The position numbers and the translations under genes are program-made. The notes below the pieces were generated by a model. It made no database searches, was not told where the DNA came from, and worked only from the letters and a program-made list of their open reading frames with translations. From positions 1-25,141 of IMG/VR virus record IMGVR_UViG_3300020439_000077: a stretch of DNA of 25,141 nucleotides. One strand, 5' to 3'. This DNA comes from a virus. Positions 13,837 to 19,230 of this stretch are shown piece by piece; the first letter of the stretch is position 1; each line of letters opens with the position of its first letter.

Positions 13837-16800
13837 TTATTTCTTAGTAACGGTAGATACGATAGTGATCTCGATTTGATGACCAGTAGTTAGGTCTGTG
13901 CCAACTTCAAAATTGATTCTGGCAAGATTACCAGATGTTCTCTCGAACGTAGGGACAATTAATTGTTGTCCTGTTCTGACATTACCGTACTCTGTATGGA
14001 AGATGTCTGTTCCATTATCTATAATACCAAACTCAAAGAATTCTCTATCATTATTATTTAAGTTCTCAGCAACTACAACTGTTTTAGCTCCTACCGCTGC
14101 CGTAGCATCGTAGATATCAGATCCACCTGTATTTGCAGAACCCTTAGTTAGAGTAATTTTTTCAGTTAGGATCTTGGTGTCTGCAAGTTCAAACTCCTTA
14201 AGATCTCCATCAAAAACTTTAACTCCAGTAAAGTTGCCTGTACCAAATGTGGTGTTGAAATAAACATCACCCTGGTTATCAAGTCTAAGAACTGGGTCAA
14301 CTGATAAACCACCAGAAAGACCTAGGTCAAAGTATTGCTTACTGGAATGTAAGAATGTTCTATCTGCTTGAGTGTTATCAAGAGTTGTTTCAGCATTATC
14401 GAATGTCATCAATCCTGCTGTAATTTCAAACTCACCAGATGTACTGGAGATAATAGTATCTACGGTGTAGAATTCAAGTGCGGATGCAGTAAGACGCATC
14501 GTGTTGTTTCCATCATTGTAGAAGTACAAGATGTTTTCGTTTGCACCAGGAGCAGTCTCAGGAATAATGTAAGTATTCTGGTCAACGTCTTTGACACCAC
14601 CAAGAGAACCCCAGTTAGTTCCATCATAACCTTCAAACTGACTAGCAGTTGTATTGAATCTGATACCACCTTGAATTGCAGCACCTCTATCAGCATCACT
14701 ACCAGCAGGAACTGCTAATGTAGTGTTTGTATTACATACAATTTTCTTACCAGCGTTAGGTTGTAAGATAATATCATTTAGATCTGTACCAATGATATTT
14801 TCTCTTAGTCTTAAATCTCCGTTGATTACTAGAGGAGAAGAACCTAATGGATCTAATCTAATTTCCTCAACGTCAACAAATGTTAGAGGTCCGACTGCAA
14901 GACCCCAGAAAGTTAATGTGCAAGTACCATTAGTTACAGCACCACTTGTATGAGTAGGTTCATTACCACTTGTAGCAGTTGTACCAGCTACGGTTACTTC
15001 ATATAGATTGTTCTTGTGCTTAAGATATGCACCGACTAGAACAGGAGCATTTGCAATCCACTCAGTAAATGCAGGAGCAGAAGTGTTAGCAGACTTAATA
15101 GTCTTGTTAGTTCTAAACTCTAATTCATTTGGTGTAAATTTAACAGTATTAGCTCCGTCATTGTAGAACCAAAGTGTGTTATCATTAGAACCAATAGAAA
15201 GTTCTGCAGTAATGTATGTGTTACCATCTAGGTCTCTAATACCACCAAGAGAAGACCAAGAAGAAGTGGCAGCACTATAACCTTCATACTGATTGCTATC
15301 CGTGTTATATCTGATAGATCCGTTTGCAGCAGAAGCAGCACCAGGACGTTGTGCGGTTGTACCAGCAGGAATGTTGATAGAACCAAAACCAGTAACTTTG
15401 GTGACCTTACCAGTAGGTGCAGATAGAACTAGATCACTACCAGCATCAGTAGAGATAACATTATTTTCAATGAATACGTTATCGTTTACATTGAGTTTGT
15501 TTGTAGTCTTGAGTTCACCAGAGGTAACAACATTACCATCTGCTTGAGTTACAGCAAAACCACCAACTGTGAAATCATTAGTTGAAATAACTGATGTTCC
15601 TGTTAGTGTTAATGCTCCAGTGGTTCCGTTTGAAACAAGTGGAGTCGTAACACTGGTTGATGCAGCAACAGTATCGGATGATAGATCTGGAGCACTAAGA
15701 GTATCGATAGTTCCTTCTGTAGCTACGATGTCAGCAACAGTTACCTCACCAGTGAGGACTTCCATTGTGACAATGTTGATGGAAGAAATATCTGTAGCTC
15801 TTAGAAGTAATCCACTACCAAATACTTTGGGATTATTAGGATCAATAGTGATTAGTGCTTCATTATTATCTTCACCGCCCTCATCTTCGTGTCCATCTCC
15901 AGAAGCACAGAAGTAGTAAAGGTTTGGTGTTGCAGATGTAATAGTAATATCGACGTAATCAGCACCTCTCTCTACACCATCAGTGTATTCAACACCAGAG
16001 ATGGTTAACGTAGCAGCACCACCTGTAGATGGTAGTTTGTCTAGAGTAATTTGAGTAGCACTATCAACGCTTACAACTCTTGTGTCTGAAAGTACAACAC
16101 CATCTCCAGCAGAAACAGTGACAAGCATTCCTGCGCTAATACCTGTGGTAGATGTTAGCGTTACTGTATAACTTGCTACATCTAGAGTTGTGCTTAGATT
16201 CTCAACTAAACTTGGAGAATAGAAACCATCTCTGAATTGAGAGAAACTGAATTGGTGACCAGACATGCTGTTGTCACTAATATCAAATCTATATGTGCTA
16301 CCAACATACATTGTAAATGTTGGTGTTAGGATAGGACCAGATCCAACATCAATATAGAATCTATATGCTAAAGTACCAGCAGCATCAACAGTGTATTGAG
16401 TTCCTGCAGCACCAGTTTTAATAATTGTGTCGCCAGAAGTAAGAAGGTTAGCTTGATCTTGCTCTAAAAGGATAGATGAAATATTTCCACTGCCATCTAG
16501 ACCAACATCCAGAATAACAATGTCTACTGCAGCATTTGTGGTGTCAGCAGTAACTGTAATATCATTTGCAGGAGTAGCTCCACCAACCAAATCACCAGCG
16601 ATCGTTAGAGTATCAGCATCGGCATATCCAGCACCGCCAGCATTAACTGCAACTGTTGCGACAGTACCATCTGCATTTCTGGTAACATCGAATGTTGCAC
16701 CACTACCATTCCCAGTAGTTGTAGATGCAACACCAGTGAATGATCCTGCTTCGTCTGATGTAAATGTTAGGTTGATACTTGCAGTGCTCAAGAATGCTGC

Positions 16801-19230
16801 AGATAGTGTTACTTGAGTTGCACTATCAACAGATGCAACAGTAACATCAATTGCAAGGTTACCACTTAAACTTTCTGATACTAGGTCTCCAACACTAATA
16901 CCAGTAGTATCTGCAAGAGTTGCGGTAAATTCTCCTTGTACACAGTTACAAGCAAGAGGACCAGTTACAGTTGGAGTAGTGTCACCACCCGTAAAGGAGA
17001 TATTTGTAATGTCACCAGCTAAGGTTGAGATTGTATCACTGGTAGTAATAGTTCCACCAGTAACAGTTTGTACTAAAGTAATTCTTTGAACATCCTTGGA
17101 TGTTACAGGGTATGTAATTGGTTGAGTAAGATCAGCAGCATTTACTGTAAATTCATCTTCTGGAGAATAACCATTACCTACATTGACTAAAGTGAAACTA
17201 CCTAATTCTCCAAGAGTATCAATAGTGTATGCAAAGTCATCTGCGGGATCACCAAATGCAGGAACAAAGTTAACAACAGTAGGTCCAAGTGCAGTTGGTA
17301 TATCAGAAAGAGTAATTAATGTTGTGCTATCAACGTTAGCAATAGTTGTATCTGCTGCTAGTACACCTGTACCACTTACTTTCTCTACTCTATATCCAAT
17401 AGAAAGTCCTGTTGTATCTGCCAGAGTAACTTCGTTAGTAGCAGTTGTGGAGAATGTTAAATTCGCCGCACCAGCTGTGAGTGGAGTTGCTGATAATGTT
17501 AATTGTGTTGCACTATCAATCGATGCAATAGTAGTTGCTTGATCTAAAGCTCCAGTGTCACCAGCACCCTGTTGTACGTTTAGACCAACTATGAGACTAG
17601 ATGTGTCCGAGATAGTAACCTGAGCACTACCTGTGCTTAGAGTCGTAGCAAAAGATGGTGATTCGCCAGGTAAATATACAGACTGATTAGAAATTTGCTT
17701 AGGTAGTCCTAATACATCACCAACCTGATATCCAGATCCTCTTTCATTAAGAACAAAGTTGATGAGATCGCCAGGGACATTTGATACTGTAAATTGGAAA
17801 CCAGATCCACCACCGTTTCCTACAGTAGAATCAGCTACGCTAAGTACGTCGCCAACTTGATAACCAGAACCACTATCTGTAATAGTTACTGCTGTAACAG
17901 TACCTGTATTGACTACGTTAGATACAGTGTAAAGGAATCCAGATCCTGTTCCACCAATATTTACAAATGGAAGTTCTAATTCGTCACCATTTTTATAATC
18001 TACACCTGGATTATTCCAAACAACATCGGTTACTACGCCGCCTGAGACGGTGACATCAACGAAACCTTGCCAACCATAGTAAGTATATGTTGACGTGTCC
18101 TGTAGGGTCATATTACCGCCAGCAGGACCCATGCCAGGATGGTTTGCACAATCATAACGAACAATCTGAGTGCCTGTGTTGCAATCAGTCTTCATTACAA
18201 CATCAGTAAAGCATCCTGGTTCTCCGTAAACACCAGCAGTGAAGAATTCAAACTTGTCTTGGAAGTCAATAGAAGATCCATTCGCTAGTTGGAAGGTCAT
18301 TCTATGATCACTTCCTGCTTGACCTGGATTCAAACCTTGAATAGAAGAATCTGATAGATCAAATCTATATGTGTTACCAATATCTAATGTTAGTTGGGGT
18401 TGATTTACGCCATCAATATTATAGATTTGTGCAGGTTCACCTGGATTACCAGCATTAGGGTTAGTTACAGATGTAACGACAAATGTTTGTACTGGTTCGT
18501 TGAATGTTTGAACCTGAGAATAAACACCATCAGTGTATCCAGTACCAGCGTTAGTGATAGTTCCTGATGGTGTTGACGTACCAGAAATTACAATGTCTGC
18601 TGTAGCGTTAGAACCGTTGCCTCCAGTAAGAGCAACTGCAGTGTAATTTCCTGGAAAATATGCAGCACCAGCATCTGTGATAGTGCCTTCTAGAGCAGTA
18701 ATAGTAAAGCTAGCAGTTGCTCCAGTGCCATTACCACCTTCTAGAGGAATTGTTAGATAATCACCTGCAACATAACCAGAACCAGCATTAGTAACCGAAC
18801 CATCAAATGCCAAGACCTCCATGTCTGCTGTGGCATTCTGTCCTGTACCACCAATTAGAGGAACTTCTGTATATGTACCAGCATCGTATCCACTACCACC
18901 ACTTACGATTGTAACTAGAGACTGTGCTAGTTTTCTTTGTTGGATATTAATATCCTGATATGCAGTAAGTTCTGATAACTTAAAGTCAATAGTTTTTTTA
19001 CCGCTATTAACAAATCCTAAAGTTTTAGTACCTGCTTTGTAGATACCTAACTGTGTGTCTGAAGTAAACTTTAGTGACGGATCTCCAACTAGACCGTCTC
19101 CTAGTTGTAGATTACCTGTTGATAGATCACTACCACCAGATGTTACGCTGAAGAGAGCATTGCTTATTTGATTGATTTTCTGCCTTTGAGACTCAAAGGT
19201 ATCAGTTTTGGATACGTTAATTGCTGGCAT
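13837..19230 (-). CDS. Large modular fibre-like virion protein with two cupredoxin-like domains (1797 residues)
   Basis: The N-terminus (1-85) carries PSLKFTSDTQLGIYKAG, a motif recalled from phage fibre attachment regions. Then come four tandem Gly-x-Gly-Tyr repeats (106-243), a cupredoxin-like domain (268-378; His309, Cys361, His364, Met367), more Gly-x-Gly-Tyr units (391-510), and three 'TTGLSxG..VDSATQLTLS' modules (527-594, 595-656, 767-824). A second cupredoxin-like domain (955-1130) is interrupted by a fourth such module (1011-1078). The C-terminal third has two copies of a fibre unit (1242-1372 and 1468-1587; RYNT..EGY and WFYNDGANT signatures) separated by a 'GTTATSGNEPTHTSG' module (1382-1445). 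A beta-rich tail ends TIVSTVTKK. The start ATG lies inside the upstream 68-residue gene (14-base overlap) and has no strong Shine-Dalgarno sequence. A late-promoter-like octamer lies 54 bases upstream. A fibre or decoration role is inferred. Confidence 0.95.
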   Translation of the reverse strand: MPAINVSKTDTFESQRQKINQISNALFSVTSGGSDLSTGNLQLGDGLVGDPSLKFTSDTQLGIYKAGTKTLGFVNSGKKTIDFKLSELTAYQDINIQQRKLAQSLVTIVSGGSGYDAGTYTEVPLIGGTGQNATADMEVLAFDGSVTNAGSGYVAGDYLTIPLEGGNGTGATASFTITALEGTITDAGAAYFPGNYTAVALTGGNGSNATADIVISGTSTPSGTITNAGTGYTDGVYSQVQTFNEPVQTFVVTSVTNPNAGNPGEPAQIYNIDGVNQPQLTLDIGNTYRFDLSDSSIQGLNPGQAGSDHRMTFQLANGSSIDFQDKFEFFTAGVYGEPGCFTDVVMKTDCNTGTQIVRYDCANHPGMGPAGGNMTLQDTSTYTYYGWQGFVDVTVSGGVVTDVVWNNPGVDYKNGDELELPFVNIGGTGSGFLYTVSNVVNTGTVTAVTITDSGSGYQVGDVLSVADSTVGNGGGSGFQFTVSNVPGDLINFVLNERGSGYQVGDVLGLPKQISNQSVYLPGESPSFATTLSTGSAQVTISDTSSLIVGLNVQQGAGDTGALDQATTIASIDSATQLTLSATPLTAGAANLTFSTTATNEVTLADTTGLSIGYRVEKVSGTGVLAADTTIANVDSTTLITLSDIPTALGPTVVNFVPAFGDPADDFAYTIDTLGELGSFTLVNVGNGYSPEDEFTVNAADLTQPITYPVTSKDVQRITLVQTVTGGTITTSDTISTLAGDITNISFTGGDTTPTVTGPLACNCVQGEFTATLADTTGISVGDLVSESLSGNLAIDVTVASVDSATQVTLSAAFLSTASINLTFTSDEAGSFTGVASTTTGNGSGATFDVTRNADGTVATVAVNAGGAGYADADTLTIAGDLVGGATPANDITVTADTTNAAVDIVILDVGLDGSGNISSILLEQDQANLLTSGDTIIKTGAAGTQYTVDAAGTLAYRFYIDVGSGPILTPTFTMYVGSTYRFDISDNSMSGHQFSFSQFRDGFYSPSLVENLSTTLDVASYTVTLTSTTGISAGMLVTVSAGDGVVLSDTRVVSVDSATQITLDKLPSTGGAATLTISGVEYTDGVERGADYVDITITSATPNLYYFCASGDGHEDEGGEDNNEALITIDPNNPKVFGSGLLLRATDISSINIVTMEVLTGEVTVADIVATEGTIDTLSAPDLSSDTVAASTSVTTPLVSNGTTGALTLTGTSVISTNDFTVGGFAVTQADGNVVTSGELKTTNKLNVNDNVFIENNVISTDAGSDLVLSAPTGKVTKVTGFGSINIPAGTTAQRPGAASAANGSIRYNTDSNQYEGYSAATSSWSSLGGIRDLDGNTYITAELSIGSNDNTLWFYNDGANTVKFTPNELEFRTNKTIKSANTSAPAFTEWIANAPVLVGAYLKHKNNLYEVTVAGTTATSGNEPTHTSGAVTNGTCTLTFWGLAVGPLTFVDVEEIRLDPLGSSPLVINGDLRLRENIIGTDLNDIILQPNAGKKIVCNTNTTLAVPAGSDADRGAAIQGGIRFNTTASQFEGYDGTNWGSLGGVKDVDQNTYIIPETAPGANENILYFYNDGNNTMRLTASALEFYTVDTIISSTSGEFEITAGLMTFDNAETTLDNTQADRTFLHSSKQYFDLGLSGGLSVDPVLRLDNQGDVYFNTTFGTGNFTGVKVFDGDLKEFELADTKILTEKITLTKGSANTGGSDIYDATAAVGAKTVVVAENLNNNDREFFEFGIIDNGTDIFHTEYGNVRTGQQLIVPTFERTSGNLARINFEVGTDLTTGHQIEITIVSTVTKK
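14470..14829 (-). repeat. Fibre unit, copy 2
   Basis: Residues 1468-1587 repeat copy 1 in order: LRLRENIIGTDLNDIILQP, LAVPAGSDADRG, IRFNTTASQFEGYDGTNW, GGVKDVDQNTYIIPE and YFYNDGNNTMRLT. Internal tandem duplication, now clearly diverged. Confidence 0.75.
14896..15087 (-). other. 'GTTATSGNEPTHTSG' module between the fibre units
   Basis: Residues 1382-1445: GAYLKHKNNLYEVTVAGTT, GNEPTHTSGAVTNGTCTL and FWGLAVG. The 'Y....nlYeV..aGttg..~PtHtsG.v.NGt' pattern resembles small carbohydrate-binding-like beta modules; binding is inference. Confidence 0.5.
15115..15507 (-). repeat. Fibre unit, copy 1
   Basis: Residues 1242-1372 of the 1797-residue protein: NKLNVNDNVFIENNVIST, a polar strand, INIPAGTTAQRPG, IRYNTDSNQYEGYSA, GGIRDLDGNTYITAE and WFYNDGANTVKFT. 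The 'P.G...qRP..G.iRyNt....EGY' pattern is recalled from phage fibres. Confidence 0.75.
15841..16368 (-). other. Second cupredoxin-like domain, altered site and interrupted by a module
   Basis: Residues 955-1130. The strand YRFDISDNS (980-988) nearly repeats that of the first domain, followed by SGHQFSF (His992) and YYFCASGDGHEDEGG (Cys1108, His1114). The Cys-x5-His spacing and lack of a following Met differ from the first copy. His-to-Cys distance is 116 residues against 52 in the first domain, and the difference is about one inserted module. Confidence 0.55.
15997..16200 (-). repeat. Fourth 'TTGLSxG...VDSATQxTLD' module, nested in the second cupredoxin-like domain
   Basis: Residues 1011-1078: NLSTTLDVASYTVTLTSTTG, ISAGMLVTVSAGDGVV and VSVDSATQITLDKLPSTGG. 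It lies between the upstream His992 and the Cys1108 loop, so the module has apparently been inserted into a pre-existing domain. Confidence 0.7.
16759..16932 (-). repeat. Third 'TTGLSxG...VDSATQxTLS' module
   Basis: Residues 767-824 of the 1797-residue protein: LADTTGISVGDLVSESLSGN followed by VASVDSATQVTLSAAFLS. It is separated from the first two copies by a divergent stretch with a CNC motif (residues 761-763). Confidence 0.8.
17263..17652 (-). repeat. Two adjacent 'TTGLSxG...VDSATQxTLS' beta modules
   Basis: Residues 527-594 (SDTSSLIVGLNVQQGAG, ASIDSATQLTLSATPLTAG) and 595-656 (LADTTGLSIGYRVEKVSGTG, ANVDSTTLITLSDIP) are consecutive copies of about 60-68 residues. Modules of this style are recalled from many phage and bacterial surface proteins. 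Confidence 0.8.
17701..18060 (-). repeat. Second cluster of Gly-x-Gly-Tyr-like repeats
   Basis: Residues 391-510 include NNPGVDYKNGDELELP, TDSGSGYQVGDVLSV and NERGSGYQVGDVLGLP, with GG.GSGF.(Y/F)TVSNV segments between. The shared SGYQVGDVL core makes recent duplication of the last two likely. Single further copies appear near residues 677-696 and 856-879. Confidence 0.8.
18097..18429 (-). other. Cupredoxin-like domain with an intact candidate copper site
   Basis: Residues 268-378 of the 1797-residue protein. A strand YRFDLSDSS (288-296) precedes His309 in SDHRMTF, and a C-terminal loop reads VRYDCANHPGMG with Cys361, His364 and Met367. The Cys-x2-His-x2-Met spacing equals the loop of amicyanin-type blue copper proteins, with His309 as the expected upstream ligand. 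The codons for His309, Cys361, His364 and Met367 were checked directly in the DNA. Copper binding itself is inferred. Confidence 0.6.
18502..18915 (-). repeat. Four tandem Gly-x-Gly-Tyr beta repeats
   Basis: Residues 106-243 of the 1797-residue protein hold four units of about 35-38 residues: VSGGSGYDAGTYTEVPL, TNAGSGYVAGDYLTIPL, TDAGAAYFPGNYTAVAL and TNAGTGYTDGVYSQV. The first three are each followed by a GGTG/GGNG..ATA turn; the fourth is degenerate and loses it. Confidence 0.85.

Follow-up and report, generated by a model that had tools for sequence, protein, structure and literature searches.

The 25,141-nucleotide stretch analysed here (positions 1 to 25,141 of the IMG/VR virus record IMGVR_UViG_3300020439_000077; hereafter the window) encodes a protein of 1797 amino acids, P0001, whose residues ~246-385 probably form a cupredoxin domain with a complete putative type 1 copper ligand set, set into a baseplate or fibre protein of a T4-like cyanophage and loaded with copper after lysis. 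The parts of this reading differ in strength. That the domain has the cupredoxin fold with an intact ligand set is very probable; that copper is bound in the particle is reasonably likely, and its type 1 character, its copy number and, more tentatively, its use are inferred as well.

The family profile, which counts the window among its 63 rows, aligns to residues 246-384 of P0001 with an E-value of 5.2e-37. A prior inspection of the letters (the sequence-only reading) had proposed an amicyanin-like copper site at 18097-18429, or residues 268-378; this interval lies inside the domain but is too narrow, as the domain runs over ~246-385. The four residues that it named, His309, Cys361, His364 and Met367, stand exactly where it put them, the strand YRFDLSDSS is present and the 1797-residue frame is open (Table 1). 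The last three of these residues lie in the loop YDCANHPGMG (residues 359-368; window 18156-18127), whose C-x2-H-x2-M pattern has a single occurrence in the window proteins P0001-P0005 (7,432 amino acids; three smaller open reading frames (ORFs) fell outside the scan). His309 and His364 are the only histidines in residues 246-385, and HxH pairs, as known from iron-binding tail fibres, are absent from the same residues. The window version differs by nine residues inserted ahead of His309 and by two additional cysteines, C340 and C350, which belong to its clade (of 93 distinct copies, 14 have Cys at the first of these columns and 9 at the second) and could be joined by a disulphide.

Relatives were collected by tblastn in phage records (29 of 50,697), by scanning viral contigs, and from the genomes of bacteria and archaea, which gave 18 loci. 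Two viral-contig scans gave 599 and 600 candidates, with 481 and 592 confirmed and the best 80 used from each, the numbers of loci being lower bounds; since many loci of the former lie on contigs already met in the first viral-contig scan, counts are given over distinct sequences. The main viral-contig and cellular-genome scans took the strand G-[NRK]-T-Y-[RWH]-F as their seed rather than the ligand loop, and also required a tblastn match to the query; the seeds of the first viral-contig scan included loop peptides. All four putative ligands are invariant in the 16 sequences of alignment A1, window included. The full set of His, Cys, His and Met (HCHM) is complete in 88 of 93 distinct copies of at least 70 amino acids (134 loci). 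In four of the others the alignment stops before the loop, three being first halves of split second copies and one a second copy from Flavobacteriaceae in which Phe takes the place of the His, and the last, another Flavobacteriaceae second copy, reads Tyr-Ser-Gln-Met. A further viral-contig scan found HCHM in 81 of 81 additional distinct copies, a partly circular count as one scan pattern contained YYC and His. In alignment A4 (63 rows including the window, at 33-83% identity to the first row), the four ligands are the only invariant columns; A4 joins 30 of 32 newly selected rows, 32 of 59 earlier rows and the window, and leaves out the degenerate Flavobacteriaceae second copy. All four are likewise intact in the window and in loci L001-L020, with L021 covering the loop only and L022 stopping before it. 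Conservation among close homologues had been set beforehand as a test of the copper-site proposal, and the invariance extends past them (A1, A4 and 88 of 93 copies). At the level of sequence, a putative type 1 copper site is in place, comprising a histidine and a Cys/His/Met loop that are invariant in A4, and the alignments to cupredoxins suggest that the four side chains may lie within bonding distance of one point.

Structure prediction gave a compatible fold. An AlphaFold2 model of P0001 residues 246-392, made with 60 rows, consists of strands and one short helix, with a predicted local distance difference test score (pLDDT) of 89.4 and a predicted template modelling score (pTM) of 0.85. 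In VIA-align (VIA), the N-terminal domain of a Hyphomicrobium nitrite reductase and two-domain laccases came out on top (Z 7.7, 3.2 Å, 103 residues aligned), and 45 of the 50 matches listed have the cupredoxin fold by name, counting coagulation factors and SufI, which we take to share it. As a Z below 8 is not decisive, a compact member of the family was also modelled (L310, from a viral contig and the first row of A4; pLDDT 96.1, pTM 0.88). Its best Foldseek match in the PDB is 2dv6_A (E 3.6e-4, probability 1.00), followed by rusticyanins and CueO, and by name 48 of the 50 matches listed are of cupredoxin fold. VIA gave Z 9.5 with a root-mean-square deviation of 2.4 Å over 97 aligned residues, and all 50 matches listed are cupredoxin-fold by name, many of them variants of the same few proteins. 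The cupredoxin-type beta sandwich that the sequence-only reading had called for is thus predicted clearly for L310 and more weakly for the window domain. Against a library of viral models, L310 had 67 Foldseek matches below 0.001; names are borne by 19 of the 50 listed, mainly cyanophage or uncultured-phage proteins, and no copper-protein name appears among those listed. Two small 'beta-sandwich proteins' in BFVD, A0A481Z6J5 and A0A481YVH3, from Pithovirus LCPAC302 and Marseillevirus LCMAC201, match the L310 model at a Foldseek E of ~1e-5.

By sequence, the window domain has no PF00127 (Copper-bind) match up to E 5, Pfam returning sub-threshold unrelated matches only, no NCBIfam match up to E 5, and nothing relevant among PDB sequences when searched alone. 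PF00127 gives a weak match in 6 of the 63 A4 members (best E 0.0047); copy 2 of MED4-213 scores 15.9 bits and P-SCSP2 15.7, with the cut-off at 21.2. In profile searches of the PDB, 3ef4, a blue copper protein, stands at E 1.1 and plastocyanins range over E 0.05-0.4, none of which is significant. Compared with 32 plastocyanin-type sequences, the phage profile scored 40.6 (probability 88.6, E 2.6e-6) with His, Cys, His and Met in register, against 16.1 for the reversed profile, 22.9 for the best of 200 column shuffles, 9.8 for Big_2 and 13.9 for PKD. The plastocyanin-type set goes back to 95 ORFs with a C-H-M loop, reduced to 68 by a stricter pattern and divided into 32 plastocyanin-type and 36 other cupredoxin rows; the latter were picked by loop pattern and include some duplicate loci and at least one multicopper-oxidase-like row. 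The Big_2 control has 6 rows from 10 loci, one of them (L277) in the wrong frame, and the PKD control 15 of 25 loci. MED4-213 has a second domain, which the family profile picks up at E 7.5e-7. A phmmer search of the PDB with this domain alone matched plastocyanin 1b3i at E 7e-4; the 20 entries listed up to E 1 are without exception cupredoxin-fold copper proteins, the other 19 at E of at least 0.11.

P0001 also carries a second copy of the domain, split by an insert (Table 1). Among 44 distinct second copies in the family, the first His, the Cys and the second His are all present in 26, all absent in 12, and reduced to the first His in 6; in the 26 copies that keep the site, the third residue past the second His is Glu in 21 and Met in 5. 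Unsplit copies were counted in 29 named phage records, which are not a random sample (12 came from the window tblastn and 17 were picked from later searches; two are single-cell contigs). These records hold 30 such copies, of which 24 have the full site (the first His was located by script in 23 and by eye in one, P-SSM7, HPIRF) and six have jointly lost His, Cys and His. One of the six is from PSS2; the other five are fibre proteins of a single kind, two of which carry the label T4-like GC 345. Split second copies, which do not span both strand and loop, were kept out of these counts. Every copy examined that lacks the Cys also lacks the second His, and mostly the first His as well, with the signature strand kept. 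The ligand residues have therefore been gained or lost largely as a set, as expected of a single site. Sf-CH1b has the full site with two extra residues before the Met.

Table 1. Features of P0001 and their positions in the window
Feature	Residues of P0001	Window position	Strand	Basis or description
P0001	1-1797	13837-19230	minus	1797 amino acids, open throughout; virion structural / baseplate-fibre-like; carries the cupredoxin-like domain
Cupredoxin-like domain 1	246-385	18076-18495	minus	
Signature strand YRFDLSDSS	288-296	18343-18369	minus	sequence and alignments
Putative N-terminal copper ligand	His309	18304-18306	minus	invariant in A1 (16 rows) and A4 (63 rows)
Putative copper ligand	Cys361	18148-18150	minus	invariant in A1 and A4
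Putative copper ligand	His364	18139-18141	minus	invariant in A1 and A4
Putative axial copper ligand	Met367	18130-18132	minus	invariant in A1, A2 and A4
Second copy, N-terminal half, with His992	~956-1007	16210-16365	minus	profile 956-1002, E 1.1e-11; end by eye
Insert in second copy	~1008-1079	15994-16209	minus	by eye, approximate; resembles GSAQVTI repeats elsewhere in P0001
Second copy, C-terminal half, with Cys1108-x5-His1114-x2-Glu1117	~1080-1125	15856-15993	minus	profile 1091-1112, E 0.0016; loop comparison

Several results weigh against a copper-binding cupredoxin and have to be set beside this evidence. For the window-domain model, Foldseek matches in the PDB are weak, with none below 0.001: peptidylarginine deiminase is best at E 0.026, rusticyanin follows at 0.034, and rusticyanin and nitrite reductase stand among the first rows beside unrelated proteins. 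The same model reaches no VIA Z of 8 or more, and lower Z values are common according to the tool. In alignment A2 (60 rows, with the degenerate Flavobacteriaceae row), only G40, T42, Y43, F45 and M122 are invariant; the first His, the Cys and the second His are each at 90% or more, and the Met is invariant. The PDB profile search ranks the immunoglobulin (Ig) domain of LRIG1 above plastocyanin (E 0.0011 versus 0.052). The domain could on this account be an Ig-like or other common beta-sandwich in which the Y-x-C and the nearby His and Met are coincidental or structural, and in line with this a MED4-213 protein bears the name 'Immunoglobulin domain-containing', PF07686 is recorded for the P-HM2 protein, and antibody and receptor Ig chains are among the weak Foldseek matches of the window model. 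We disfavour this alternative and give it a very slim chance: the fold matches listed for L310 are cupredoxins by name in nearly all cases, the Big_2 and PKD profiles score at background, loss of the Cys is matched by loss of the second His in all copies examined, and the 16 aligned sequences share one conserved Cys only, with no second one for an Ig-type disulphide.

The similarity to plastocyanin has a comparable weakness. With the ligand columns masked, the score falls to 22.8 (A2) and 20.0 (A4), next to best shuffles of 22.9 and 21.5, so the direct similarity alone would not show common descent. Homology to plastocyanin is reinstated through intermediate sequences. A bridge set of four sequences chosen for their intermediate look (MED4-213 copy 2, P-SCSP2, ACG-2014d and L141, a Prochlorococcus cupredoxin above the PF00127 cut-off) reaches E-values of 8.6e-17 against the phage profile and 7e-10 against plastocyanins; masking its four ligand columns still leaves 2.2e-11 and 8.7e-6, and PKD and Big_2 give 0.12-0.35. 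Taken singly, ACG-2014d fails to link to plastocyanin (probability 6) and P-SCSP2 does so weakly (37).

The second copies call for similar caution. The association of the first His with the Cys among them has a Fisher p of 8.8e-7, a test that ignores relatedness. On a quick tree of the neighbouring sequence, which carries long-branch warnings, the His and Cys states change five times each, and three full-site changes are forced by starred branches; independent pairs on this tree never oppose in direction and are too few to test (median p 0.25). The existence of ligand-free copies in structural genes further indicates that the fold has a use of its own. PSS2 gp080 (L387 2992-3330) is a 112-residue protein made of the domain alone, with the ligands lost, and it adjoins tail genes. 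According to Table 2 of PMC2784084, PSS2 ORF080 was detected in purified virions with 9 peptides on average. A virion protein that lacks the ligands shows that the fold is useful without copper.

These copies bear most directly on the view that the cupredoxin fold is real and the metal purely structural, copper or another soft metal pinning the C-terminal loop of a sandwich that serves as a spacer or as a glycan- or receptor-binding module. Such a view would fit the persistence of ligand-free copies in structural genes (18 of 44 second copies without Cys, the five fibre proteins and PSS2 gp080). However, the unsplit copies that have the Cys keep all four ligands including the Met (88 of 88; 24 of 24), and this retention of the axial Met favours a tuned copper site over a mere clamp. 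Partial sites were seen as His-only second copies (6 of 44), although the split copies do alter the Met place (Glu in 21 of 26). We regard a purely structural metal as rather unlikely. It is very improbable that the domain is a degenerate cupredoxin of cellular origin whose metal binding was lost in the window's phage; the ligand-free copies of the same family, the 9-residue insertion and the two extra Cys of the window would accord with such decay, but neither the window nor any of L001-L020 lacks one of the four ligands.

On the reading that we prefer, a cupredoxin domain carrying copper in the particle, the domain would fold in its metal-free form within the virion protein, in the cytoplasm of the host, and take up copper after lysis, giving several mononuclear copper centres per tail. 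Type 1 sites can load copper unaided by a chaperone and bind it tightly, and apo-cupredoxins reach their fold in the absence of metal, so that a tail protein synthesised in the cytoplasm could acquire its copper once the cell has lysed. The result would be a redox-competent copper module at the tail, working at contact with the cell envelope of the marine host. We put forward a redox or contact role at the tail only tentatively, as a use that may or may not apply; simple metal stabilisation of an exposed sandwich is the next best reading of the use and seems less likely.

The domain is widespread. A compact member matches 365 of 50,697 phage records, some with ligand-free copies, which bears out the suggestion of the sequence-only reading that related loops exist in other marine phages. 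By first name word these records are Synechococcus (261), Cyanophage (63), Prochlorococcus (27), Pelagibacter (4), Methylophilales (4), Marine (3) and three others; plasmid records searched with another compact member gave no match. The carriers examined include Kyanoviridae, two small-genome Pelagibacter phages, the Autographiviridae member P-SCSP2 and the siphovirus P-SS2, and the carrier genes are labelled tail fibre, baseplate wedge, baseplate wedge tail fibre connector, virion structural or hypothetical protein. Homologues from cells or cell assemblies include long Flavobacteriaceae repeat proteins and lipoprotein-like proteins, the latter in contigs whose labels assign them to OM182, SAR86 and other marine bacteria. 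The lipoprotein-like homologues, so called from a reading of their sequence, have a glycine run and the domain at the C-terminus, and most of those from marine bacteria seem to have a cadherin-like middle part. In L120, L129, L130, L131 and L132 (whole ORFs) and in L123 and L128 (domain only), all marine bacterial and lipoprotein-like, the domain lies at or near the C-terminus with the ligands intact. The L118 contig (189 kb), from a Prochlorococcus single-cell genome, contains five domain-matching stretches and a plastocyanin-type gene (L140); it appears to be the same as G001:C3 and looks like a cyanophage genome within a bacterial assembly.

The surroundings of P0001 agree with a structural role. 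The large ORFs of the window are all on the minus strand and match phage structural families, and among named sequences Synechococcus phage S-CAM4/ACG-2014j comes closest (76% identity across 34% of the searched stretch); we read the window as a fragment holding the structural gene cluster of a T4-like cyanophage. P0001 has no Pfam match in the library scan and matches PHROG 6005, 'virion structural protein', and PHROG 32294, a baseplate wedge subunit. In the direction of transcription, it is preceded by a large protein, whose counterpart in S-MbCM7 is annotated 'baseplate wedge initiator', gp7, and by a 68-residue ORF, and is followed by a 166-residue ORF and a tail-fibre-like protein of 3499 amino acids. 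The tail-fibre-like P0003 (2790-13289) has five F-[TQ]-C motifs, at residues 1205, 1341, 1428, 1516 and 1589; four are FTC-x2-DGN, with YPR next in three of these.

The known roles of cupredoxins are those of a carrier, soluble or linked to a membrane, and of a domain within a copper enzyme. No report of a cupredoxin as a standing part of a virus particle appeared among the matches listed by full-text searches of the open-licence PMC subset, a scope that leaves subscription papers and preprints outside. A virion cupredoxin places a familiar fold in a new setting and does not amount to a new fold; it gives a likely identity to a domain labelled hypothetical, structural, tail fibre or baseplate in the phage records examined. 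If copper is bound, a common class of marine phages would have redox-active metal centres on its tails, which bears on infection, virion stability and the binding of trace copper in the sea; the question can be put directly to the cultured phages S-TIM5, P-SSM2, S-CAM4, Baldr and Melnitz. A much bolder extension, which we think quite improbable, is that abundant marine phages of Synechococcus, Prochlorococcus, Pelagibacter and Methylophilales carry tail arrays of functional blue copper centres for redox or metal-exchange at the host envelope, that their particles form a pool of strongly bound seawater copper, and that the second copies with Glu for Met (21 of 26) are a second, differently tuned centre.

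Among known systems, the iron-binding HxH motifs of tail fibres, which belong to a trimeric fibre with iron binding proposed or shown (T4 gp37 and alterophage R22Y, PMC11705849), likewise place metal on the tail of a phage in waters poor in metals and invite a similar ecological reading; they differ from the window domain, which has no HxH and instead a Cys/His/His/Met set in a beta sandwich. In fold, the closest relative is the N-terminal domain of the three-domain nitrite reductase of Hyphomicrobium denitrificans (2dv6, 6tfo, 6tfd), the first VIA row for both models and first in Foldseek for L310; at ~16% identity, it is part of a respiratory enzyme, whereas the phage domain belongs to a virion protein. 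Plastocyanin and PF00127 share the His and the Cys/His/Met loop in register and are bridged to the phages by MED4-213 copy 2, P-SCSP2 and L141, but they have a longer loop than the phage Cys-x2-His-x2-Met, and the window has no PF00127 match. Cys-x2-His-x2-Met is the spacing of amicyanin, and to this extent the name 'amicyanin-like' given by the sequence-only reading holds; identity to amicyanin does not follow from it, as the best folds are the nitrite reductase domain, two-domain laccases and rusticyanin, and amicyanin 3ply is a weak match of a bridge sequence (E 0.63). Amicyanin is a free periplasmic electron carrier tied to methylamine dehydrogenase, whereas the window domain, with the same spacing, is embedded in a 1797-residue phage protein among structural genes.

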